NCBI GenBank assembly: GCA_011364925.1
Contig: RDOA01000034.1
Location: forward strand, 1 to 38,575
From: Promethearchaeota archaeon
Lineage (GTDB): Archaea > Asgardarchaeota > Lokiarchaeia > Sigyniarchaeales > SOKP01
Length of the DNA stretch: 38,575 nt
Direction of reading: 5' to 3'
Shown here: positions 2,393 to 33,709 of the stretch, piece after piece
Position numbering within the stretch: position 1 is the first letter of the stretch
How the letters are laid out: each line of letters begins with the position of its first letter
Program-made: the position numbers and the translations under genes
Notes under the pieces: model-generated
What the model saw: only the letters and a program-made list of their open reading frames with translations
Database searches by the model: none
What the model was told of the DNA's origin: nothing

Positions 2393-4705
2393 TTAAAACA
2401 CCTTCCCGCAATTAATGCAAAATTTATTTGATTTATTGTTAACCTGACCACAACTCTCACATTTCTTCCCTGACTGTAAATATAAATCTGATATCGAACT
2501 TGAAGTAATTACTGAGCTTTTTAACAAGTCAAGAAGTATTTTTCTGATGTGCGAATTTGTTGGTTCAGGCACTCCTGAATTTAGAGCCTTTATCATGTAA
2601 TCAATAGCTGATTGGAAATCTCCTCGATTAAAGAACTGAAATGCTATATCTGCAAGCTGCTGCGCTTTTAAACCTTCTAAGGAATGCGGTGGTTGAGGAG
2701 GATGTAAGTTATATGTAATTGAATCAAATAAGCTTTTGATATCTACCTGAATTGAAGGTGTAGGTGTTGAATATCTAGGTTGATACCTAGCTACATCTTG
2801 GTATGCTGGTATTCTGGGTTTTGGTTTAAATATTGTTTCGATATTTAGGATATTATAATTTGGCTGATATTTAGCCACCCCGAATTTTCCTTTTAGTCGT
2901 TTTTCGCCTATTACGCGCTTCCTATGAATAATTTGAGACACAACGGCATAAGAACCAACAAAAGCGAGTATTACAATTCCAATTGAATTTAGAACAATTG
3001 TTATTAACGAAAATCTTGGGTCTAATGGATCGACTCCCCACGCTACTTCATCTCCATCTTTGAATCCATCTCCATCTGTATCTGGATTTGTTGGATCGGT
3101 GTGGTATTGATTTACTTCTAATCCATCATACAAGCCATCGTTATCAGTATCTGGATCAAGAGGATCTGTCGGACCATAAAACTCTTCATAATCAGATAAT
3201 CCGTCTCTGTCTGTATCGATTGATACATAACTTAATCCATATAATATCTCAATAGCATCATCGAGCAAATCGTTATCTGTATCTTCTGAAACAGTATTCT
3301 CTAAAACAATTAACTCATTTCCTTGGATTCTAGCTACAAGTGCATAGCCAGTAAGTCCCGATACTCCGTCTAGTTGGATTGTACCTGAATACGAGCCAAA
3401 ACCAGTGGTTGACGGCGCGCTCAAGGTCAAATCTTTAGTTTGATAGACGAGACTTTGAGTCCAGTTGTAAACAATGATATCCAATTTTTGAATTAAACCT
3501 GTTCCACAGAGGTCAAAAGAATATGAGAGAGAATTTCCAGTAGGTATCAAAGATAGTGAACCAAATGCGCTACTCAGAACTCCTTCTCCCGAAATTCCAT
3601 CATATTGCATAGGGTGATGAACATATCCGAGAGATGTTGATCTTGAAACTGTATTAGAATAGGTATAATTGTAGCATTCTTCCATTGATATTATATCATC
3701 ACCATTAAAATCAGTGGCATAATCGTTCGAATTTAAAAAGTAATACGTAAAACACCCATTCTGGTGATCACTATCTTCTAAACTTGATTCTTGCGCTAAA
3801 CATGCGGTCATTATATACCGCCCTACCTCCTGAACTTCATCTATTATACCTCCACTATTACACGAATCGCATATAACATATGCTTCAGCGCAATTTAAAG
3901 TATCTAATTTTGAATCGAGTAGTGTATCGATAAAGTAGTTATCTGGAGACGAAGGTAATGAATCGTAACTACATAAATATTGAGTATCAGTATATGTATA
4001 AGCTTCATACATATCGATTTCAAAACCCCAATCTGTGAACGAATTGTCTGTAATAAATCTTATGTATAAACTGTTATCGCTAAGAAGCGGAATCCACCCA
4101 GACCAGAAATCTGTGTGATATCCTGTATAATCCTCATAATACCAATCGTCATATAAATCAGTATCCCCTAAATATACAAAATCAAACCCACTCTCAAGAT
4201 TTACCTCATCAAAATGTACCCTCATATACGCGGCATTTTCATGGTAGATACTCCACATTGTATCCAAATTGTTTGTGTATGGATGAGAAGAACTAATTGA
4301 AGTACTATGAGGACCATCACTTACTACGTCCGTACCTCCATGTCCAGAATAGTAAAAAAAGAAAATGTCATTGTTATCAATCTGCGTTTCAATTTGATCA
4401 AAAGCATTGTTTATTGCACTTTTAGTAGCTTCTTTATCTTGAAGTAGAATAACATTTTCGGCTTTAAAGTTATATTCATCAATTAACATATCATAAACCT
4501 CGCGTGCATCGTCGTCACAGTATGACAAGTCATTATCATAGCCGGGATAATTTGAGATACCAACAACAATAGCATAGGCTTTTTTAACAGCTAAAAGTGC
4601 TGAGGTCCCAAGGTTTTCATAATCATTATCGTTATAGATACTCCTATATTGCTGAAAATATCCAAATAATGGAAATCCAAAACAGAATAGGCAAAAAATT
4701 ATCAA
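2393..4705 (-). CDS. Membrane-anchored caspase-fold (C14-like) protease with inserted CUB domain and cytoplasmic zinc ribbon
   Basis: This 770-residue protein has, in order: a hydrophobic N-terminus (residues 1-17, signal peptide or anchor); the first half of a caspase/metacaspase-type domain (about 42-126) with the catalytic His in YYSGHGG (H122); an inserted CUB-like beta-sandwich (about 135-238, with HPYTNNLDTMWSI, VHFDEVNLESGFDFVYLGD and FITDNSFTDWGFEIDMY); the second caspase half with the catalytic Cys in CDSCNSGG (C282); a beta-rich region (about 385-470); thrombospondin-3-like Asp-rich calcium repeats (about 475-563); one membrane helix (about 566-592) followed by HRKR; a Tyr/Pro-rich linker; a TPR-like helical pair (about 678-745); and a zinc ribbon (C749, C752, C763, C766). 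The protease should therefore face outside and the ribbon inside. The start used is TTG, and an in-frame stop lies a short way upstream. A basic RSK sits just before the TTG in frame, so the true start may be a rare codon slightly upstream. It heads a two-gene operon. Confidence 0.85.
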   Translation of the reverse strand: MIIFCLFCFGFPLFGYFQQYRSIYNDNDYENLGTSALLAVKKAYAIVVGISNYPGYDNDLSYCDDDAREVYDMLIDEYNFKAENVILLQDKEATKSAINNAFDQIETQIDNNDIFFFYYSGHGGTDVVSDGPHSTSISSSHPYTNNLDTMWSIYHENAAYMRVHFDEVNLESGFDFVYLGDTDLYDDWYYEDYTGYHTDFWSGWIPLLSDNSLYIRFITDNSFTDWGFEIDMYEAYTYTDTQYLCSYDSLPSSPDNYFIDTLLDSKLDTLNCAEAYVICDSCNSGGIIDEVQEVGRYIMTACLAQESSLEDSDHQNGCFTYYFLNSNDYATDFNGDDIISMEECYNYTYSNTVSRSTSLGYVHHPMQYDGISGEGVLSSAFGSLSLIPTGNSLSYSFDLCGTGLIQKLDIIVYNWTQSLVYQTKDLTLSAPSTTGFGSYSGTIQLDGVSGLTGYALVARIQGNELIVLENTVSEDTDNDLLDDAIEILYGLSYVSIDTDRDGLSDYEEFYGPTDPLDPDTDNDGLYDGLEVNQYHTDPTNPDTDGDGFKDGDEVAWGVDPLDPRFSLITIVLNSIGIVILAFVGSYAVVSQIIHRKRVIGEKRLKGKFGVAKYQPNYNILNIETIFKPKPRIPAYQDVARYQPRYSTPTPSIQVDIKSLFDSITYNLHPPQPPHSLEGLKAQQLADIAFQFFNRGDFQSAIDYMIKALNSGVPEPTNSHIRKILLDLLKSSVITSSSISDLYLQSGKKCESCGQVNNKSNKFCINCGKVF

Positions 4706-5104: not shown

Positions 5105-6592
5105 ATGAAGCTTCAAACTTCTAAAGATATTCCTTTGGATGAATATTATAGTTCAGAAGAGGGAAAGTCCGGAGGACAAGTGCAGCCAATAAAAGCTGAA
5201 AAGTGGGGAATTAGCCCTTATGAAATCGAAGAAACTCTTTATTATTTTTGTAAACAGGTAGCGTTACCTGGACTTGCCGGTGTTCTTATACCTTTAACAA
5301 TATTTTTTGGTATATTCGAGAATTCCTTTATTGAAACTCTGAGCTATATCATTTATGGAGTAGCAGCAATCCTGCTTATAAGTGTTGGGAGAGAATACAT
5401 AAGAGGATTAAGGTATAAAATTAAAGAGGGCGTAATATATTTACCGGGACCGTATTACCTTAAACATGAAGCAGAGGATTACTCACCTATTATAAATGAA
5501 ATAAGTGACGAACCAAAATACAAAATTGGATTTGTTGGGGATATTATGAAGATGAATGGTTTCGGCTTGAATTTTCACCCAGATATTAAAACCTTCTTTA
5601 AGGATACGGATTTGATAATTGGTAACTTAGAAGGGATTATTATTAATAAAAAGTGTCCAATTTTAAAACAAGGTCATTTAGTAGGCATTCTCGAAAAATT
5701 AGAAGCCCTATTAAGCGATAACAATATGTGGTTGTTGTGTTTAAGTAACAATCACGGAGAAGATTTCAGTAATACACAATTTAACGAAACTGTACACACA
5801 ATACAAAATTATTCAGATAAATTTAATGTTTTTGGGCGAGGAGACGTGTCTTTTATAAGTAACGAAAAAAAAGATTTATATGTAGCATGCGCTACACAAT
5901 GGAGTAACCAAAAAACATGGAACTACACCTTCAAATATAATAATCCCAGTATCGAACTTAACGACTATATTAACAGTGCTACGTATCCATTTCAACTCAT
6001 TCGAAATAATAATTTTAACATCCTTCTTCCTCATTGGGGCTTTGAAAACGAAAAGTACGTGAGAACAAGGTTTCAAGAAGATGCAAAAGCACTTTTAACG
6101 GGTATCCTACCTGATTATAAGTGGTTAAAAAAAATCTATAAAAAACGATTATTGAAAGGTATTTTTGCTCATCCAAATCACAAATGGGATCTTATTTTTG
6201 CTCATCACCCACATGTTCTTCAACCAATTATGACAGTTCCAGATACATTTAAAACCAAAGATGGAAAGACTATTCCTCTAAAAAAATTAGTAGTATTTTC
6301 TGCGGGAAACTTTACTTCGGGAGCTAACATCATTCGAAAAAAGAAACACATTTCTGGTATAATTATGAAGTGCGAGATTGGTCCTTTAAAAGAGTGTAAT
6401 GAAAAACTCGCTATTGGCAAGATGGAATGGCGTAGAACAAAAAATCTAAAAATACGAGTAAAAAGAAAACCCGCAAAATTAGTGTGTATTGACAGCGATA
6501 ATTATCGAACGTACAATAAACCCTTTCTCATTAATGGATTAATATTTTTTGGTATATTTCTTTTTGTCTATTTAATGAATTTGTTTTCTTAA
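5105..6592 (+). CDS. CapA-family membrane protein, copy 1
   Basis: This 495-residue protein carries a CapA-type domain (poly-gamma-glutamate capsule CapA family, a calcineurin-like metallophosphoesterase fold). Motifs are FVGDIMKMNG (143-152), IGNLEG (172-177), SNNHGED (214-220), LPHWGFENE (308-316), FAHHPHVLQP (365-374) and FSAGNFTSGA (398-407). These His, Asp and Asn residues fit a metal-binding site. Two hydrophobic segments (about 53-70 and 76-94) precede the domain and one (about 474-492) closes the protein, so it is anchored at both ends. The intervening domain must lie on one face, but which face is not clear. The ATG at 5105 follows GGTGA at 5096. It is closest to copy 3 in motif wording. 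CapA proteins are linked to capsule or polymer synthesis, but their chemistry is unsettled and no capB/capC is nearby. Confidence 0.85.
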   Translation: MKLQTSKDIPLDEYYSSEEGKSGGQVQPIKAEKWGISPYEIEETLYYFCKQVALPGLAGVLIPLTIFFGIFENSFIETLSYIIYGVAAILLISVGREYIRGLRYKIKEGVIYLPGPYYLKHEAEDYSPIINEISDEPKYKIGFVGDIMKMNGFGLNFHPDIKTFFKDTDLIIGNLEGIIINKKCPILKQGHLVGILEKLEALLSDNNMWLLCLSNNHGEDFSNTQFNETVHTIQNYSDKFNVFGRGDVSFISNEKKDLYVACATQWSNQKTWNYTFKYNNPSIELNDYINSATYPFQLIRNNNFNILLPHWGFENEKYVRTRFQEDAKALLTGILPDYKWLKKIYKKRLLKGIFAHPNHKWDLIFAHHPHVLQPIMTVPDTFKTKDGKTIPLKKLVVFSAGNFTSGANIIRKKKHISGIIMKCEIGPLKECNEKLAIGKMEWRRTKNLKIRVKRKPAKLVCIDSDNYRTYNKPFLINGLIFFGIFLFVYLMNLFS

Positions 6593-6755
6593 ACTTTAAA
6601 TAGCCACGAAAAAGGTTTTTATTGATTTGAATTCATGATATTCAATAGAACACTTCCTAAGCAGTGTCAAAAGTTCTTTTTATAGTTTATAAGTGTAAAT
6701 AAGTTTGGTTTCAAGCTATCATCATTATATAAGAAATTTACTTTGATGTATAAAA

Positions 6756-6806
6756 AAGTAAGATATATATATACAAGCTGAGTGTATAAATAACTATCCA
6801 ATGTTA
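6756..6806 (+). promoter_or_regulatory. TATA-containing leader of the CapA cluster (copy 2)
   Basis: This is the second copy of the block at 4890-4940: an ATATATATATACA element, then GCTGAGTGTATAAATAACTATCCAATG. It ends about 30 bases before the ATG of the second CapA gene. The rest of the 244-base gap between CapA copies 1 and 2 shows no reading frame of note. Copies 2 and 3 probably share this promoter. Confidence 0.6.
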
Positions 6807-6836
6807 TTCAATTTAAAAATTTTAATTTGATATAAA

Positions 6837-8294
6837 ATGGCATTAACCAATAATAATGGCGATCTTCTTGATAATTATTACGGAACTAACATAGTTAATG
6901 GCGTTGTAACTGGACCTCATCCAGCTCCAGTTAGTCCGTGTGATCAGTCAACAACTTTTAATAAATGGGGGAACCCCTATGATCTTCAAGAGACGATATA
7001 CTGGATAATCAAGATGATAATCTTACCAATTTTAGCTAGTATATTAGTCATTTTTATAATAATACTCCCTACATTTGAAAATCCAATATTTGTTGCAATT
7101 AACGCAGTTTTAGCGCCTATTGCAAGCATTTATATTCTGATCGTGGCGAGAGAATCAGCAAGGGCTATATGGAACAGAATTCCGAATGATCTGCGAGTCA
7201 CTTCAGGGACTCCTTTAAATGATATATCAGCAGTTCAATTTAGAATCGGTTTTGTAGGAGACATTATGATGATGAACGGACATATACTTATGTTTGATCC
7301 TGCTGTTGTCAATTTTTTTAATGATGTAAATAATGTACATTTAATTATTGGTAATCTGGAAGGCATTGTAACAAATGATAAAGCTAAAGGTTCACAGCAA
7401 AGACATCTCCCTGTTATACTTGATGAGTTAGTTAGTGTATTGCCACCTAATTTAAAATGGACATTATGTTTAAGCAATAATCACAGTATAGACTATGGAA
7501 ATAAAGCCTTTCATACCTCTTTAATCGATATCCAAAAAAATCCTCAATTTAATGTTTTTGGTCGAAACGATATGAATAATGTATTAGTTCAAACATATCC
7601 CATAAGTATTGCTACTGGCACAGAATGGAGTAATCAAGACACTTGGGATTGTACTTCAAGATATAGAAATACAGAACTATGGACATATTATTCAAACACT
7701 AGATTAAATAATTTTAATAGATTCAATATCCTATTTCCGCATTGGGGATATGAAAATGAGCGATATGTTAGAAAAAGAATTCAGAAAGACGCCAAAGCAT
7801 TGTTAAATGGTGGAACGCAAACCTATACTAGATATCAGACATACATAAGAGAACGCCTTGATAAGGAAATTTTACCTGATCAGAATGGAAGAAAGTGGGA
7901 TTTAATTTTTGGTCATCACTCTCATACACCACAACCAATAATGAGTGTTTGTGATCATGTAAACGATATCGGATTCAATAAATTAGTCGCATTCTCTGGT
8001 GGAAATTTTACTTCGGGTGCCTGGATCATTCGTAGAAAAAAGCATATCTATGGGACTATTATGAAGTGCGATATTGGCCCTCTAACCAATTGTCCTACAA
8101 AGCTAGCTGTTGGAAATGTAGAATGGAGAACCACAGTAAATGTAAGGTCCACTTGTGGGGATAAAAAATATAAAACCGTGAGCATCTACAGTAGAAGATA
8201 TAGAACTTTTGCTCATTATCTATGGCAATTTCTCTTAGCTGTCGGTATAATAGCGTTAATACTCCTACTAAGGTATCTTGATTCGATCCTATGA
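6837..8294 (+). CDS. CapA-family membrane protein, copy 2
   Basis: This 485-residue paralogue of the flanking genes has the same plan: a polar start, two hydrophobic segments (about 55-95), a CapA domain and one C-terminal helix (about 463-481). CapA motifs are FVGDIMMMNG, IGNLEG, SNNHSIDYG, FPHWGYENERYVR, FGHHSHTPQP and FSGGNFTSGA. It is the most diverged of the three: HHSHTPQP replaces HHPHVLQP, and its N-terminal region lacks the IKAEKxGISPY segment shared by copies 1 and 3. The stop is 34 bases before copy 3, so those two are likely one transcript. No signal peptidase site is visible. The likely role is in envelope or polymer handling at the membrane, by family only. Confidence 0.85.
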   Translation: MALTNNNGDLLDNYYGTNIVNGVVTGPHPAPVSPCDQSTTFNKWGNPYDLQETIYWIIKMIILPILASILVIFIIILPTFENPIFVAINAVLAPIASIYILIVARESARAIWNRIPNDLRVTSGTPLNDISAVQFRIGFVGDIMMMNGHILMFDPAVVNFFNDVNNVHLIIGNLEGIVTNDKAKGSQQRHLPVILDELVSVLPPNLKWTLCLSNNHSIDYGNKAFHTSLIDIQKNPQFNVFGRNDMNNVLVQTYPISIATGTEWSNQDTWDCTSRYRNTELWTYYSNTRLNNFNRFNILFPHWGYENERYVRKRIQKDAKALLNGGTQTYTRYQTYIRERLDKEILPDQNGRKWDLIFGHHSHTPQPIMSVCDHVNDIGFNKLVAFSGGNFTSGAWIIRRKKHIYGTIMKCDIGPLTNCPTKLAVGNVEWRTTVNVRSTCGDKKYKTVSIYSRRYRTFAHYLWQFLLAVGIIALILLLRYLDSIL

Positions 8295-8328
8295 ACATTT
8301 AGAATATCTGATTAATTATTGATAACAC

Positions 8329-9843
8329 ATGAGGTTCTATAATTCACAAGGCTTATCTTTGGATAACTATTATAGTACAACACTTGGATGTTGTGGTGGG
8401 AATACTCAATTTATTAAAGCGGAAAAATGCGGAATTAGTCCTTATAAGGCAGATGAGACGATATACTACATTTGCAAGCATTTTGCCTTGCCAGGTATTG
8501 CCACCGTGTTTCTCCTTCTGCCATTAATGTTCTATATTATTTTTAATTTTAGTATTAGGTCTTTAAGTTATATATTCATAATTCTATCATTATTACTTCT
8601 TTTAAGCGTAGGAAGAGAGAATATAAGGGGATGGAAATACAAAATTAAAAATGATGATGGCAATCAAATTATATATCAACCAGGTCCGTATGTATGTAAA
8701 CGAGAAGCAGAAAAATACATATGTAAAATAAATGAAATATCTAAGACTCATTATAAGTTAGGATTTGTAGGTGACATCTTGAAAGTGAACAAATTTGATC
8801 TTGAATTTCATCCCGATATAAAGTGTTTCTTTCACGATGTTGATCTTATTATTGGTAATTTAGAAGGAATAATTACCAGACTAAAATGCCCAATCTTAAA
8901 ACAAGCTCACCCAAGAAAGATTCTTACTCAATTAAAAACCGTACTAAATAAGGATACAATGTGGCTGTTATCAATGGGTAATAATCACAGCGAAGACTTC
9001 AATAATTATCAATTTAACCGTTCTTTAGCTCGTATTCATAGAAACCCAAAATTTGAAGCATTTGGTAGGAAGGATGTATCATTTATTCAAAATCAGAATA
9101 AAGACATAAACATATTTAATGCGACTGAATGGAGTAATCAAAAAACTTGGAATTATACTTCTATCTATGAGTCTCCAAATCGTGAATTTCAGCAGATTAC
9201 TAATCTTCTTGATAATAATAAATTTAATATCCTTTTCCCTCATTGGGGTTTTGAAAACGAAAAATACGTGAGAACAAGGTTCCAGAAAGATGCAAAAGCA
9301 CTACTAACAGGTATCCCACAAAATTACTCGAAATATCAAGATTTTTTAAGAGAAAAATATCACAAGATGATATTACCAGATCCTGCTCATAAATGGGATT
9401 TCATTTTTGCTCACCATCCCCATGTTCTTCAACCTATTTTGAAGATTTCAGATAATATATTAGATGATGACGGAGAACCAGTTATGAATTGTAAGGGAAA
9501 ACCGATTATTTGCAATAAATTAGCTGTTTTTTCTGCTGGAAATTTTACATCAGGGGCCAACATCCTTCGAAAAAAGAAACACATTTCGGGAATTATTATG
9601 AAGTGCGAGATAGGCCCTTTAAAAGAATTTGATGAGAAACTCGCTATTGGCAGGATGGAATGGCGTAGGATAAAAAATCATAAGATTAGAATTAATGGCG
9701 TAAGAACTAAACGAGTTTGTGTCGATAACCAGAAATATAGAACCTATAATAGATCACTCTTCATAGTGAGCATAATTCTTTTAATTATATTTCTTGTAAT
9801 GTTTTTTACTAATGATTTAATATCATTTTTGTCCAGTTTGTGA
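8329..9843 (+). CDS. CapA-family membrane protein, copy 3
   Basis: This 504-residue third paralogue is strikingly close to copy 1: both have IKAEKxGISPY near residue 30-40, HWGFENEKYVRTRFQ, AHHPHVLQP, FSAGNFTSGAN and KKKHISGIIMKCEIGPLKE. Two hydrophobic segments at about 50-90 and one at about 478-500 bracket the CapA domain. The order (1 and 3 alike, 2 different) suggests that copy 3 arose from copy 1, or that the pair is homogenised by gene conversion, rather than simple stepwise duplication. The start ATG follows an AT-rich 34-base gap with no clear Shine-Dalgarno. The 152-base gap after it contains only AT-rich sequence before sucC. Confidence 0.85.
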   Translation: MRFYNSQGLSLDNYYSTTLGCCGGNTQFIKAEKCGISPYKADETIYYICKHFALPGIATVFLLLPLMFYIIFNFSIRSLSYIFIILSLLLLLSVGRENIRGWKYKIKNDDGNQIIYQPGPYVCKREAEKYICKINEISKTHYKLGFVGDILKVNKFDLEFHPDIKCFFHDVDLIIGNLEGIITRLKCPILKQAHPRKILTQLKTVLNKDTMWLLSMGNNHSEDFNNYQFNRSLARIHRNPKFEAFGRKDVSFIQNQNKDINIFNATEWSNQKTWNYTSIYESPNREFQQITNLLDNNKFNILFPHWGFENEKYVRTRFQKDAKALLTGIPQNYSKYQDFLREKYHKMILPDPAHKWDFIFAHHPHVLQPILKISDNILDDDGEPVMNCKGKPIICNKLAVFSAGNFTSGANILRKKKHISGIIMKCEIGPLKEFDEKLAIGRMEWRRIKNHKIRINGVRTKRVCVDNQKYRTYNRSLFIVSIILLIIFLVMFFTNDLISFLSSL

Positions 9844-12058: not shown

Positions 12059-13486
12059 ATGATATCCGCAATTATCGCACCATTAATGCTTGTTTTGGTA
12101 ATTATTTTTATTACGATAGGAAAGATGAATCGTCTTCTGGCAGCGTTTATTGGTGCAATCACAGTGGCTTTTTTCTTACTTTATGTGGATAACATTGATA
12201 TTACAATTGTAGTAGGATTTCTAATTGGAACTGATAATTCCAATCTCCAAACGATTTTATTTATTTTTGGCATGATGATGACTATTGCCGTGTGTGAAAA
12301 AAGTGGAGTATTTAGTTATATCGCATTTCGATTAGTACAAATGTCGAAAGGAAAAAGCCGTCGTATTCTTATTATCCTATGTTTTTTTACATTTATTTTC
12401 TCGTCTGTTACGATGAACATCTTATGTATTTTTTTAATTATCCCTCTTACGATTACGATTTGTAGAATTTTGAAAATAAATCCACTCCCATTTATTTTAT
12501 CAGAGGGAATGGTTGTAAATTTAGGTGGACTTCTTTTCGTTATTAGCTCAATTCCTAATTTATTGATAAGTCACGCAATTAATTGGACATTTCCAGAGTA
12601 CTTCATAGATGTAGGATTTTTTTCTATATATCTTTTTATTATTAATATTATATTCTTAACTAAATATAACGAGCGTAAGTTAGAAACTGCTGAACCCAAT
12701 TACATTAAACGCTTATTAGACTATGATCCCTGGATGTTTGTAGCGTCTAAAAAAAATTTTTATAAATCACTGGTTATCCTTCTATTAACGATTCTATCAG
12801 TAATAATACTTCCGTCATTTATTCCAATAACAATTGACATCATAGCTTTAGCCGGAGGTATCATCTCTGTCTTATTGGTTTTAGTCAAAAAATTCGATTC
12901 TATTTGGAAATCTCTCGATTTAGAATTAATTTTTTATCTATTTTGTATTTTATTTATATCTGAAGCAATTGACTTCACTGGAGTACTAAATTTCGTATCA
13001 GTGGGGATAGATTTTATAACGGGAGGTAATCCATTTAGCATTACAATTTTATTGTTATGGCTATCGAGTATCCTTAGTTCCGTAGTTCATAATGCACCAA
13101 TCACTAAAATTTTTATACCAGTTGTTCGGAATGTCTCAACGGCGCAAAATCAACGAGTCTTTTTTTCATCTTTAACAATAGGGACGGTTTTAGGAGAAAA
13201 TCTATCAGTTATGGGAGATAATCTAGTTTTAATTCTTATGGTAAGATCAAAAGGTTATAAGTTAACATTTTCTACTTTTATGAAACTTGGAATTATAACT
13301 ACTATGTTAGAATTAATAGCTTCGAGTTTTTTCTTACTCATGAAGGTAAGTATTCAATTCCTCTTTATTGGGATTATTATCTTATTAGGAATCGTTGTTC
13401 TTTTACTTCTTTCTTCTAAAATTCTCAAATGGGATAAGGTAATTAAAATAAAAAATTTAAGGAAAAACAAGCTGATCCAAAAATGA
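12059..13486 (+). CDS. ArsB/NhaD/SLC13-superfamily ion or dicarboxylate permease
   Basis: This is a very hydrophobic protein of about 475 residues with roughly 11-12 membrane helices. Two pseudo-repeated discontinuous-helix motifs mark the ion-transporter superfamily: VVNLGGLLFVISSIPN in the first half and GTVLGENLSVMGDN in the second, equivalent to the NxGGxxTxIGxxxN of ArsB and NhaD proteins. A TTG four codons earlier (12047) also opens the frame, but the ATG at 12059 is preferred. It sits between sucD and the ATP-citrate lyase genes on the same strand with a 76-base gap, so a di- or tricarboxylate substrate is tempting. The sequence alone does not exclude Na+/H+ antiport or oxyanion export. 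Confidence 0.75.
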   Translation: MISAIIAPLMLVLVIIFITIGKMNRLLAAFIGAITVAFFLLYVDNIDITIVVGFLIGTDNSNLQTILFIFGMMMTIAVCEKSGVFSYIAFRLVQMSKGKSRRILIILCFFTFIFSSVTMNILCIFLIIPLTITICRILKINPLPFILSEGMVVNLGGLLFVISSIPNLLISHAINWTFPEYFIDVGFFSIYLFIINIIFLTKYNERKLETAEPNYIKRLLDYDPWMFVASKKNFYKSLVILLLTILSVIILPSFIPITIDIIALAGGIISVLLVLVKKFDSIWKSLDLELIFYLFCILFISEAIDFTGVLNFVSVGIDFITGGNPFSITILLLWLSSILSSVVHNAPITKIFIPVVRNVSTAQNQRVFFSSLTIGTVLGENLSVMGDNLVLILMVRSKGYKLTFSTFMKLGIITTMLELIASSFFLLMKVSIQFLFIGIIILLGIVVLLLLSSKILKWDKVIKIKNLRKNKLIQK

Positions 13487-28858: not shown

Positions 28859-30202
28859 ATGCGAAAAAAAGTTATTATTATTGGCGCCTTAGGAATGGAT
28901 TTTCACTTATATAATACAGTATTTCGAGATAATGATGAATACGAGGTTATCGCATTCACGATCGCTGGAGAACAAAATGTAGGGACTATAGAAGAAGAGG
29001 AAAGGAAGTTTCCAGCAGAATTGGCTGGTAAATTATACCCTAACGGCATTCCAATGGTTTCAGAGGATTTACTTGAGGAAATGATCAAAAAGTATGCTGT
29101 TGATGAGGTAATCTTTGCTTACTCCGATGTATCTCACGAAGAGGTTATGCATAAAGCAAGTAGAGCCTTATCTGCAGGTGCTAATTATCGTTTAATTTCA
29201 GGGCGATTCACACAAATTAAGGCAAATAAACCAGTAATAGCTGTGTGTGCTGTAAGAACGGGATGCGGAAAAAGCCAAGTATCTAGAGCTGTTTATCGAT
29301 ATTTGAAGAAAAAAGGTATAAAAGTTATAGCCATAAGAGAACCAATGCCTTATGGAGATTTAGTTCAACAAAATGTAATGCGATTTGAAACCTACGATGA
29401 TCTAGATAAATACGATTGTACAATTGAAGAAAGAGAAGAGTATGAGCCCTATATACGACAGGGATTAGTAATTTATTCGGGAGTAGATTACGAGAAGATT
29501 ATTCGAGAAGCGGAGAAAGAAGCAGATATGATCGTATTTGATGGCGGTAATAACGAGATTTCATTTTACATCACGGATCTTCTTTTTGTAGTTGTAGATC
29601 CATTACGTCCGGGGCATGAAGTAAAATATCACCCTGGGGAAGTTAATGCGCGATATGCTGATGTGTTTGTTATTAACAAGATGAATAGTGCCAAACCCGA
29701 AGATGTGAAAATAGTAGAGAATAATTTAGATCTGCTAAATCCTAAAGCGATAAAAGTTTTTACAAATTCTACTGTTACAGCAGATAATCCTCTTAAAATG
29801 AAAGGAAAGAAGGTTATTGTAGTGGAAGATGGCCCAACTTTGACGCATGGCGGGATGGCTATCGGAGCTGGATATGTCGCTGCTAAAAATGCTGGAGCTA
29901 AAATTATAGATCCAAAACCTTTTCTTGTAGGGACCATGAAAGAGGTTTTTAAAGAATTTCCACAAATTACACAGATAGTCCCAGCTATGGGTTATAACGA
30001 TCAGCAGATTAAGGACATGGAAGATACTCTCAACAAAGCTGAATGCGAATATATAATCGATGGGAGCCCAATCGATCTCGAAAAATTAATTGATAGCAAT
30101 AAACCTATTATTAGAGTTGCATACGATATCGAAGCTATATCAAATCCAACTATAGAAGAAGTTCTTGATGAATTTATAGAAAAACATCTAAAACAAAATT
30201 AG
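28859..30202 (+). CDS. Cyclic 2,3-diphosphoglycerate synthetase-like P-loop protein (predicted GTPase)
   Basis: This 447-residue protein matches the CpgS/COG2403 family in length (about 450) and motifs: an N-terminal Rossmann-like part (KKVIIIGALGMDFHLYN), the P-loop AVRTGCGKSQVSR (131-143, K138, S139), REPMPYGDL, IVFDGGNNEISFY and GPTLTHGGMAIGAGY. CpgS makes cyclic 2,3-diphosphoglycerate, a thermolyte of some methanogens, but homologues are widespread in mesophiles where the product is unproven, so I leave the symbol empty. AAGGT lies just before the ATG. The flavodoxin gene starts 12 bases after the stop. A decayed second copy of its last 50 codons lies at 31287-31448. Confidence 0.8.
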   Translation: MRKKVIIIGALGMDFHLYNTVFRDNDEYEVIAFTIAGEQNVGTIEEEERKFPAELAGKLYPNGIPMVSEDLLEEMIKKYAVDEVIFAYSDVSHEEVMHKASRALSAGANYRLISGRFTQIKANKPVIAVCAVRTGCGKSQVSRAVYRYLKKKGIKVIAIREPMPYGDLVQQNVMRFETYDDLDKYDCTIEEREEYEPYIRQGLVIYSGVDYEKIIREAEKEADMIVFDGGNNEISFYITDLLFVVVDPLRPGHEVKYHPGEVNARYADVFVINKMNSAKPEDVKIVENNLDLLNPKAIKVFTNSTVTADNPLKMKGKKVIVVEDGPTLTHGGMAIGAGYVAAKNAGAKIIDPKPFLVGTMKEVFKEFPQITQIVPAMGYNDQQIKDMEDTLNKAECEYIIDGSPIDLEKLIDSNKPIIRVAYDIEAISNPTIEEVLDEFIEKHLKQN

Positions 30203-30214
30203 CCTACCAGAAAA

Positions 30215-30778
30215 ATGGAAAAAACCCAAATATTAATTGCTTATGGCACTCGTTATGGAGCGACCGCTGGTACCGCAGAAGAAATTTCTAAAGTTCTTCA
30301 GGGTGAAGGATTTGAATTAAAAGTCGTAAATCTCAAAGAAGAGAAAGTCAAGGACATCTCAAATTTTGATCTTATTATTATTGGGAACGGGATGAAAATG
30401 GAAATGTGGACAAGTAATGTTAAAGCATTTCTGAAAAAGTTTAGTAATGAGCTCAAAGAAAAGAAAGTGGCAATTTTCGTATCTTCAGGCGGGCGGGCGC
30501 TCATGGAATATAAAGGAGAAAATGATGAAATTGAAAGAATAACTAAAAAATACCTTGAAGATAAAGCTACTAAATACGATTTGAATCCAATCTCGATGAT
30601 CATGTTTGGAGGTATCTGGGATTATAATCAGATGGGTAAAATTTATAGAAAATTCTTAGACGCAGAAAAAGAAAATTTTATCCCGGCAGGATTTAAAGAA
30701 ACAGAGCCAGGAGTATACGATTCAAGAAATTGGGATGAGATACATAAATGGGCTAAAGAATTAGCTAATACGATTTAA
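30215..30778 (+). CDS. Flavodoxin-domain protein (HemG/flavodoxin_5-like)
   Basis: This 187-residue flavodoxin-fold protein has the FMN phosphate loop YGTRYGATAGTAEEI (10-24), FDLIIIGNGMKMEMWT (51-66) and FVSSGGRALMEY (88-99). The second half is longer than in classical flavodoxins and resembles the HemG/protoporphyrinogen-oxidase-like flavodoxin group. It should bind FMN and carry electrons or reduce a small substrate. It lies 12 bases after the CpgS-like gene and is probably co-transcribed. A ten-T run follows at 30804-30813. Confidence 0.82.
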   Translation: MEKTQILIAYGTRYGATAGTAEEISKVLQGEGFELKVVNLKEEKVKDISNFDLIIIGNGMKMEMWTSNVKAFLKKFSNELKEKKVAIFVSSGGRALMEYKGENDEIERITKKYLEDKATKYDLNPISMIMFGGIWDYNQMGKIYRKFLDAEKENFIPAGFKETEPGVYDSRNWDEIHKWAKELANTI

Positions 30779-30883: not shown

Positions 30884-31291
30884 TTGGATGATTCAACAAT
30901 TATTAAAATCAAAAACCACCTATCTGACAGATTAGAAGAGATTAAAAATGGGACATACATTCCGTACTACGATAGATTTAAAGAATTGCCGGAATTCAGA
31001 GGAATCGACAAGAAAACTTTTGAAATCGCCCGAAGGGAGTGGTATAAACAAAATCTTCCTAAGGATAAATTTAAGTTTCCTTTTATTGTGGCTAAAAAGC
31101 GAATAAAGAGGTCACTTACTAAGGGATATTGTTGGTTAATTATAGGAGTGATAGTCACTATACTTGGCTTTTGGACTGGGGTAGAGGGTAGTTGGTCTGG
31201 TGGAGCTGAGACCTTTTTAATAATAGCCGGCATAATTCTACTGGTTTTTGGAATTATAAGCCTATTATACAATAGGTTCAAAAAGTCTTAA
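30884..31291 (+). CDS. Small membrane protein of unknown function
   Basis: This 135-residue protein starts at TTG behind the purine-rich AAGAGGTTGAGAAAG, with a TATA-like element 50 bases upstream. The first 75 residues are polar and charged (NGTYIPYYDRFKELPEFRG, FEIARREWYKQNLPKDKF). Two hydrophobic helices follow (about 81-100 and 108-129), separated by a Gly/Ser-rich turn, and the end is NRFKKS. Two-helix topology puts both termini inside. No family is recognised. Its last five bases overlap the start of the CpgS-tail remnant, so it appears to have been dropped in front of that remnant, or its end was created by the rearrangement. Confidence 0.55.
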   Translation: MDDSTIIKIKNHLSDRLEEIKNGTYIPYYDRFKELPEFRGIDKKTFEIARREWYKQNLPKDKFKFPFIVAKKRIKRSLTKGYCWLIIGVIVTILGFWTGVEGSWSGGAETFLIIAGIILLVFGIISLLYNRFKKS

Positions 31292-31448
31292 TGAAAAATG
31301 TGAAGTAATTATTGATGGGAGCCCGATAGACCTTGAAAAATTGATTAATAGTAATCACCCTATTGTCAGAGTCTCGTACGATATCGAAGCTATTAAAAGC
31401 CCAACAATAGAAGAAACATTACTTAAAAATCGTTTAAATAATATTTAA
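31287..31448 (+). pseudogene. Remnant of a second CpgS-like gene (C-terminal 50 codons)
   Basis: In the frame starting at 31287 the translation reads LNEKCEVIIDGSPIDLEKL, then VSYDIEAIKSPTIEE, and ends in a stop at 31446-31448. The intact gene at 28859 ends LNKAECEYIIDGSPIDLEKL, VAYDIEAISNPTIEE. The match covers the last 50 or so residues and both copies stop at equivalent places. There is no start codon or upstream homologous part, so the piece is a scar of a tandem or paralogous copy. The nucleotide match is clear but diverged, with several changes at third positions, so the copy may have been under selection before its loss. Confidence 0.75.
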
Positions 31449-31528
31449 TTCTAAAGTCTCATTAAATCAACCATAGTTTAAAGTCATGTTTTTAATATTA
31501 TAATCATAATTCAATTGAGTGAAAATCT

Positions 31529-33709
31529 ATGGTTTTAGCAGAGATGAAATATGAACTCCACGAAGTTCGAAAAGGGTATACTAACAGAACTCTCTACATT
31601 AATCTCTCCAATAATAATATTCAGATAAAGCCCGTAACCGATGGAATGAAAGAAAATTTTATTGGAGGCAAAGGGTTTGACCTCTGGCTTATGTGGAATG
31701 GACTCCCACAAGATAAAATAGTTAAATGGAACGATCCTGAAAATGAAATATGTATCTCTTCAGGACCATTAGGAGGGAACATCTTTTATCCAGGATCTGG
31801 AAAGTCTATTGTTACTACCATTTCTCCCTTAACGGATATTGTAGTAGATTCGAATGTAGGTGGATATTTCGGTCCTTATTTGAAATTCTCTGGATTTGAT
31901 GCCATCGAAATTCAAGGAAAAGCAGAAAAAGAAGTCATTGTATATATCAATGGCGTTGGTGGGATTGTTCAAATCAAACAAGTGGAAGAATCACAAGAAT
32001 TGTCTAAATATTCTCACGAACTTACTCAACAACTTACCGAGCAATACGCTCAAGACGACCGTGAAAAACAACGAGTTTCGATAGTAAGCACTGGTCCTGC
32101 CGCAAAACACACGAATTGGGGGCTCCTAAATTTCTCATGGTATGTTCCTGGTCGAAAATGGGCGTCAAGTAAGCAAGCCGGAAGAGGGGGAATTGGCACC
32201 GTTTTTGCAGATAAGAATATAAAAGCATTAGTCTGTCGATCTCCTAAAGTTTCCGTTAGCTCAAATAATCCTGCTAATTTAGAAGAAGCAAGAAAAATAG
32301 GAATCGCACACACGCAAGAAATAATTAAACTTGATCCTGTTCAGAACGAAATGCGTAGAGTTGGAACAGGTCATCTTCCAGACATCATGAATGTTACCGA
32401 CCTCCTACCCACAGAAAATTTCCGTTTTGGAGCTCATAGAGAAATTCGAGGGAAAGAGATCCCATACAATAGGGAAATTATGAGAGGGATATATTCTGGA
32501 AAAGAAGGCGCGGATGGATGCTGGATTGGATGCACAGTCAGCTGTTCTCACTATTCGGAAGAGTATGAAGTCCGGACAGGTCCTTTTAAAGGCCAAAAGC
32601 TAATCGTCGATGGTCCAGAATACGAAACCATTGCTGGATGCGGTTCAAATTGGGGTGTGTGGGATCCTCAGTGGGTTCTAGAAGTAAATTTCTATTGTGA
32701 CACTTATGGTATAGATACTATCTCAGTTGGTACGGGAATTGCGTTTGTCATGGAGTGTTTTGAAGCTGATATCTTAAATAAGAAAATAACTGGAGGATTA
32801 GAGTTAAATTTTGGCAATGCAGAAGCTGCAGTTGAGTTAATTCACCAAATGGCTAAAGGAGAAGGCTTTGGCGTTATCGTGGGAAAAGGTATAAAATATA
32901 TGAAGAAATATTTCATTGATAATTATGGAGCAGATCCACAATTTATTCAAGACATCGGAATGGAGCACAAAGGCTTAGAATTTTCTGAATATGTGACAAA
33001 AGAATCTCTAGCTCAACAGGGAGGATATGGATTAACGAATAAAGGGCCACAACATGACGAGGCTTGGCTTATATTCGACGATGTCATCCGAAACTCGATT
33101 CCAACCTTTAAGGATAAAGCTAGAGCACTGCAATATTTCCCTTTATGGCGAACTTGGTTTGGTTTGTGTGGTTTATGTAAATTGCCTTGGAACGACATTC
33201 AACCCGAGAGTCAAGCTGATTATCCCATAACCGATCCAAACACAGGAGAGCTAGTTCGCGCTAAAATTCCCGACCATGTAAAGTGGTACACAGAATACTT
33301 CTCGGCAGTGACGGGAAGGGAATCTACAACAGAAGATCTAATTTTGATGTCTGAAAGAGTTTATAATTTTCAACGGATATTTAACATCAGATTAGGTAAA
33401 GGTCTTCGGGAACACGATTCTAATTTACCTTATAGAGCCGTTGGACCAGTTACTCCTTTAGAATACGAGAGTAGGGTCGAACGATACGATGAACAGTTAA
33501 AAGCAATGAATATAGATGTTTCAGATAAATCTACTGAAGAAAAAATCAAAATCCTTCGAAAGCATAGAGAAGAACAGTACGAAAAACTCCAAGATGCTGT
33601 ATATTTGGAACGAGGTTGGAAGAAAAACGGTTGTCCTTCAATAGCGACAGTAAAAAGATTAGGAATTGATTTTCATAAGATAATCGATATTATTGCTCCG
33701 TATCAATAA
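31529..33709 (+). CDS. Aldehyde:ferredoxin oxidoreductase family (tungsten/molybdenum bis-pterin) enzyme
   Basis: This 726-residue AOR-family protein has the N-terminal pterin-binding domain: RKGYTNRTLYINLS (14-27), FIGGKGFDLWLMW (44-56), PGSGKSIVTTISPLTD (88-103) and GGYFGPYLKFSGFDAIEI (111-128). It then has GRGGIGTVFADKNIKALV (218-235), DGCWIGCTVSC (C331, C335, C339) and GLCGLCKLPW (C547, C550) for the 4Fe-4S cluster. The family oxidises aldehydes (or reduces acids) with ferredoxin. The first two cluster cysteines are spaced C-x3-C instead of the usual C-x2-C. An alternative start is the ATG at 31544. The next gene begins 26 bases after its stop, giving an operon with two flavoprotein genes. 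It is longer than the classical 600-residue enzymes because of a charged C-terminal extension. Confidence 0.88.
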   Translation: MVLAEMKYELHEVRKGYTNRTLYINLSNNNIQIKPVTDGMKENFIGGKGFDLWLMWNGLPQDKIVKWNDPENEICISSGPLGGNIFYPGSGKSIVTTISPLTDIVVDSNVGGYFGPYLKFSGFDAIEIQGKAEKEVIVYINGVGGIVQIKQVEESQELSKYSHELTQQLTEQYAQDDREKQRVSIVSTGPAAKHTNWGLLNFSWYVPGRKWASSKQAGRGGIGTVFADKNIKALVCRSPKVSVSSNNPANLEEARKIGIAHTQEIIKLDPVQNEMRRVGTGHLPDIMNVTDLLPTENFRFGAHREIRGKEIPYNREIMRGIYSGKEGADGCWIGCTVSCSHYSEEYEVRTGPFKGQKLIVDGPEYETIAGCGSNWGVWDPQWVLEVNFYCDTYGIDTISVGTGIAFVMECFEADILNKKITGGLELNFGNAEAAVELIHQMAKGEGFGVIVGKGIKYMKKYFIDNYGADPQFIQDIGMEHKGLEFSEYVTKESLAQQGGYGLTNKGPQHDEAWLIFDDVIRNSIPTFKDKARALQYFPLWRTWFGLCGLCKLPWNDIQPESQADYPITDPNTGELVRAKIPDHVKWYTEYFSAVTGRESTTEDLILMSERVYNFQRIFNIRLGKGLREHDSNLPYRAVGPVTPLEYESRVERYDEQLKAMNIDVSDKSTEEKIKILRKHREEQYEKLQDAVYLERGWKKNGCPSIATVKRLGIDFHKIIDIIAPYQ

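Follow-up and report, generated by a model that had tools for sequence, protein, structure and literature searches.

A truncated cpgS-like fragment upstream of an aldehyde ferredoxin oxidoreductase operon in Lokiarchaeia, a probable leftover of allele displacement

A stretch of about 127 bases in front of an aldehyde ferredoxin oxidoreductase (AOR) operon of a Lokiarchaeial genome was identified, on sequence evidence, as an internal piece of a cpgS-like gene that is cut at both ends. The fragment is probably what remains of another cpgS allele, one of genus type, that was displaced at this locus through recombination with DNA bearing a different cpgS version. The window, i.e., the whole stretch of 38,575 nucleotides that was analyzed, corresponds to contig C43 of a metagenome-assembled genome (3.9 Mb in 112 contigs), with a contamination estimate of 4.2%; the named relatives of this genome are Candidatus Lokiarchaeota.

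The fragment and its two junctions

The downstream order in the window is the intact cpgS-like gene (28859–30202), a flavodoxin-domain gene (30215–30778) that stands just before the AOR leader in several relatives, a gene for a 135-aa protein (30884–31291), the fragment, and the AOR operon, whose first gene (31529–33709) heads a conserved AOR-Fer2/Pyr_redox-DAO run; these parts, the two junctions and the AOR leader lie on the forward strand. The similarity of the fragment to the gene at 28859, as reported in a preliminary description, proved to be real: positions 31297–31415 aligned with 30042–30160 over 119 ungapped bases at 78% identity (E 1e-24), and chance similarity was rejected by a local score of 67 against a maximum of 20 in 300 shuffles. 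In the pairing of 30045–30202 with 31287–31448 given in that description, the former interval is out of frame. The remnant extends over 31295–31421, with an uncertainty of about 6 bases at the left edge and about 10 at the right, and covers about 42 codons (residues ~395–435) in the CpgS reading frame, which is free of stops over 31297–31415. No in-frame ATG, GTG or TTG was found from the preceding in-frame stop to the start of the similarity, so that translation from an upstream start was rejected, and initiation at an internal TTG at 31341 would yield no more than about 35 codons. The view of the region as a genomic scar of a second cpgS-like copy whose 5' part is missing was borne out. The fragment is the sole other piece of cpgS found in the 3.9-Mb genome, where a search for a full paralogue elsewhere was negative, and we ascribe no present function to it.

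On the left, the bases at 31286–31294, TCTTAATGA, form the conserved terminus of the 135-aa gene and can also be read as the L-N of CpgS. The similarity to cpgS begins at 31297–31301 in most species, and the cpgS of G005 has TCTTAATGA at the place of the junction. The junction, CTTAA/TCTTAATGA, possibly represents a microhomology of 5–9 bases at most, of which the five shared bases would be at most a part. The scar had been thought to start at 31287; the bases 31287–31294 are explained by the conserved gene end. The 135-aa protein has two hydrophobic segments and no family match, and a full-length homologue was found only in the sister genome G021 (69%), there too between cpgS and AOR, ending with the same AAGTCTTAATGA as in the window. 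Because this homologue shares the terminal residues and the stop, the end of the 135-aa gene is evidently ancestral, and the proposal that the event had set it was abandoned. The N-terminal ~60 residues of the protein (30884–31060) form a domain that is found once more in the genome (G000:C101:23701–23883) and of which a 960-aa open frame of G037 (L037, G037:C9) contains at least four copies.

On the right, 11 bases (31422–31432) separate the cpgS similarity from a conserved leader of the AOR operon (31433–31528). The leader sequence from 31433, TTTAAATAATATTTAATTCTAAAGTCTCATTAAATCA, is near-identical in G002, G007, G010, G050 and G053 and recognizable, although weaker, in G064. It contains a TATA-like TTTAAATA (31433–31440) and, just past this box, an inverted repeat TTTAAT-N11-ATTAAA (31444–31466) that is conserved in five other species and is a possible candidate for an operator, perhaps for a TetR-like regulator absent from the window. 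The leader also supplies the TAA at 31446–31448, which had been taken for a stop equivalent to that of the intact gene. Since the block from 31433 is conserved before AOR in relatives, this TAA and the last codons ahead of it belong to the leader and not to a gene end; the CpgS similarity ends at about 31415–31421. True CpgS proteins end in a form like TIEETLDKFIEKFLK before the stop, and this C-terminus is also missing from the fragment, which is therefore not the C-terminal tail that had been described. An arrangement of fragment and AOR as undisturbed neighbors, as in G017 with similar spacing, was rejected because the leader is of another type. Other scars were observed at these loci. In G007 (L072, G007:C72, ~4565–4620), the first ~12 codons of the flavodoxin gene are fused directly to the AOR leader, a scar of the deletion of that gene at the same locus. 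In G056 (L077, G056:C37, 9767–9922), AOR is followed by a 5' piece of the Fer2/Pyr_redox gene and then by the intact Fer2 gene, so that cpgS is not alone in leaving such scraps.

Mosaic structure of the intact gene and affinity of the fragment

The intact gene encodes 447 aa and gave no match in Pfam or NCBIfam. A profile of 18 relatives matched solved cyclic 2,3-diphosphoglycerate synthetases, with a best E value of 2e-10, and all three CpgS structures (8ork, 8oru and 9sxb; PMC10690619) were among its matches. The match is remote, however, and covers about 110 of 437 positions, and the Lokiarchaeial gene is a member of a distinct family found across bacteria and archaea, for which synthesis of cyclic 2,3-diphosphoglycerate is putative. 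"CpgS-like" is thus a fair but remote label.

In the rpoB tree, which alone stands here for the species tree and in which the position of G014 was disregarded, the window genome groups with G021, G007 and G008 (99/97), and G019 falls outside the 14-species clade. The body of cpgS (alignment positions 180–1080), on the other hand, pairs with G019 (100/98), and forcing it into its rpoB clade was rejected by AU tests (p 1e-5 and 7e-5). The informative sites flip sharply from G019-like to genus-like at alignment position ~1083, near codon 361: in the bins after 1080, 30 of the 35 scorable sites are genus-like, and the observed clustering was reached in none of 5000 permutations. The intact gene is evidently a recombinant, of which most (~28999–29940) goes with the distant species G019 and the 3' fifth (~29940–30202) is of the local genus type. 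An origin of the whole gene from a foreign source was considered and revised on account of this genus-type 3' part.

The fragment, over 123 aligned bases, is 85% identical to the allele of G009, 83% to those of G002 and G008, 81% to those of G021 and G007, and 76% to its own intact neighbor, a ranking that is to be read as a best-of-30 comparison. In local alignment, its own copy came 15th of about 30 alleles, with 14 other Lokiarchaeia matching better. The differences sit mostly at third codon positions (e.g., [5,0,13] against G009), suggesting that the fragment diverged as part of a working gene, and it looks like an ordinary cpgS allele of the genus that remained functional until fairly recently. 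AU tests of its placement (123 columns) gave p 0.30 for a sister relationship to its own copy, p 0.12 for a position with G021, G007 and G008, and p 0.52 for one with G019; as only about 120 bases are available, its place in the tree is not significant. Since the genus type is shared by the fragment and the 3' fifth of the intact gene, it does not decide which of the two was first at the locus.

The cpgS locus in related genomes

Among the 196 genomes searched, of which 138 carry cpgS, none has two full cpgS copies at the site, and the fragment resembles an ordinary allele of the genus; the diverged paralogue that had been assumed to lie before the operon found no support. In most relatives with contigs that extend to the AOR operon, cpgS lies upstream of it, but the interval between the two is variable. 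The order in G002 is cpgS-tetR-flavodoxin-AOR, cpgS stands immediately before AOR in G017, G005, G019, G023, G036, G045 and G056, and other cargo occupies the interval in G010, G050 and G053. The tail of a tetR-like gene, present in full in G002, was observed between cpgS and flavodoxin in G009 (L070, G009:C24, ~12130–12200). Elsewhere in the window, diverged repeats at 5372–9679 (5372–6446 with 8596–9679 at 68%, and others) look like tandem paralogues.

The sister genome G021 carries a 48-bp remnant of the cpgS 3' end, with the terminator region, about 37 bases behind the 135-aa gene (score 43, against a maximum of 32 in 1000 shuffles). What G021 has kept of cpgS is what the window lacks. This complementarity suggests that a single older event preceded the split of the two lineages and that trimming then went on separately in each.

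Related loci were then searched with all cpgS alleles. At 1.5–5 kb upstream of the intact cpgS, additional copies of its promoter, in most cases together with the first codons, were found in G014, G010, G009, G056, G053, G060, G059 and G008, and G011 likewise carries a 5' scrap upstream, giving nine further genomes with 5' scraps. Two such scraps, of about 85 and 120 coding bases, are present in G056, and those of G053 and G008 consist of the promoter only. Nine of 11 scraps, including that of the window, match the allele of another species better than their own. The genes beside the scraps include ParE, VapB and PIN toxin-antitoxin genes and genes for an MFS transporter, a radical SAM protein and an acyltransferase-like protein. 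In G009 (L070, G009:C24, 8139–8198), a copy of the cpgS promoter and start lies directly before the MFS transporter gene, a possible candidate for promoter capture.

A self-comparison of 382 kb around rpoB contained no such pairs of scrap and gene. Ordinary regions were added as a control, as the surroundings of rpoB may be unusually stable, and 400 kb of other DNA with 354 ORFs contained at most two. The comparison of 7 of 30 genomes with 2 of 354 ORFs gave a Fisher p of about 3e-7, or 3e-5 with five events. Both values serve as guides only, since an event may be common to several related genomes and the presence of a scrap was the reason for choosing the locus.

Origin of the fragment and recurrence of displacement

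Displacement by an imported allele would proceed as follows. The incoming DNA would pair with the resident cpgS on one side, which would serve as the homologous anchor, and would be joined at its other end through a short homology or none; alternatively, a molecule containing a portion of cpgS could have recombined by a single crossover. The former route would leave an intact hybrid gene and the truncated end of the old allele flanking the new cargo. Later deletions would trim the scrap up to the AOR promoter, which would be kept by selection, and displacement in situ appears to have been repeated, leaving cpgS ends behind. A donor genome with the exact incoming segment was looked for and none was found.

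A tandem duplication of a cpgS segment before the split of the window genome and G021, reduced by deletions to one piece, with the intact copy later partly overwritten by G019-like DNA, is appreciably less probable, although it deserves consideration. It would be a cheap and common process; G021 shares the order of the 135-aa gene followed by a cpgS remnant, the 24% difference between the fragment and its own tail is about that between alleles of the two sub-groups of the genus, and grouping of the fragment with its own copy is not rejected by the AU test given above. Decay of a tandem paralogue accords poorly, however, with a neighbor that is only the 15th-best match and with the lack of a full second copy at the site in all 196 relatives (0 of the 138 cpgS-bearing genomes), and most scraps in other genomes are likewise closer to foreign alleles than to the resident one.

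We regard an assembly artefact, in which contigs of co-occurring Lokiarchaeia were joined at short shared words, as improbable. The fragmented state and estimated contamination of this metagenome-assembled genome and the short similar word at the left junction would fit such a join, but the same kind of remnant occurs in independent assemblies, among them G021, where it follows the same gene, and G053, a single-contig genome, and the two junctions coincide with a natural gene end on the left and a promoter edge on the right. Least probable is that the fragment is still translated or acts as a regulatory leader of the AOR operon. Its open frame, its synonymous-biased differences and its position directly upstream of the AOR promoter might be cited for such a role; against it, no start codon precedes the similarity, both ends are truncated, the fragment is absent in other species with the same AOR leader, and the codon bias is explained by the time that it spent inside a gene.

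The displacement of a genus-type allele by imported DNA, which we favor, has counterparts in known systems. As in xenologous gene displacement in situ, the position of the gene is conserved but its phylogeny is discordant, here in the pairing of the cpgS body with G019, and part of another allele persists next to the gene; in contrast to that process, the replacement of cpgS is mosaic inside the gene and pieces of other alleles survive. Homology-facilitated illegitimate recombination, or partial single-crossover integration (PMC3240628), has one homologous and one illegitimate side, as may be the case at the present locus, where the sharp switch near codon 361 would be a candidate for the former and the left junction for the latter. 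Most such events in E. coli left a partial duplication of the target gene, of 109–950 bp in sequenced clones (PMC3240628), and a similar route has been proposed for Vibrio effector loci, where newcomers shift older genes downstream and parts of the older ones are kept (PMC5361080). Unlike the E. coli and Vibrio cases, the Lokiarchaeial locus is known from its end products only, in uncultured Asgard archaea, and its mechanism is deduced from them; unlike the Vibrio loci, it holds a metabolic-type gene.

A scrap of this kind alone is ordinary, and its recurrence over about ten genomes is the part worth following. We tentatively propose, as an idea that may well turn out otherwise, that the cpgS-like gene in Lokiarchaeia is a standing recombination anchor, at which imported alleles and cargo (toxin-antitoxin pairs, transporters and small genes) are repeatedly taken up, each uptake restoring one intact cpgS and leaving scraps of the promoter end or the 3' end as a record of exchange between species. 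A search of the available literature returned no relevant report on gene-replacement hotspots in Asgard archaea. Gene exchange in these uncultured archaea is poorly known, and recurrent scraps of foreign alleles would trace recombination between species of Lokiarchaeia. Single-gene trees from Lokiarchaeial genomes can accordingly mix histories, even inside one gene.
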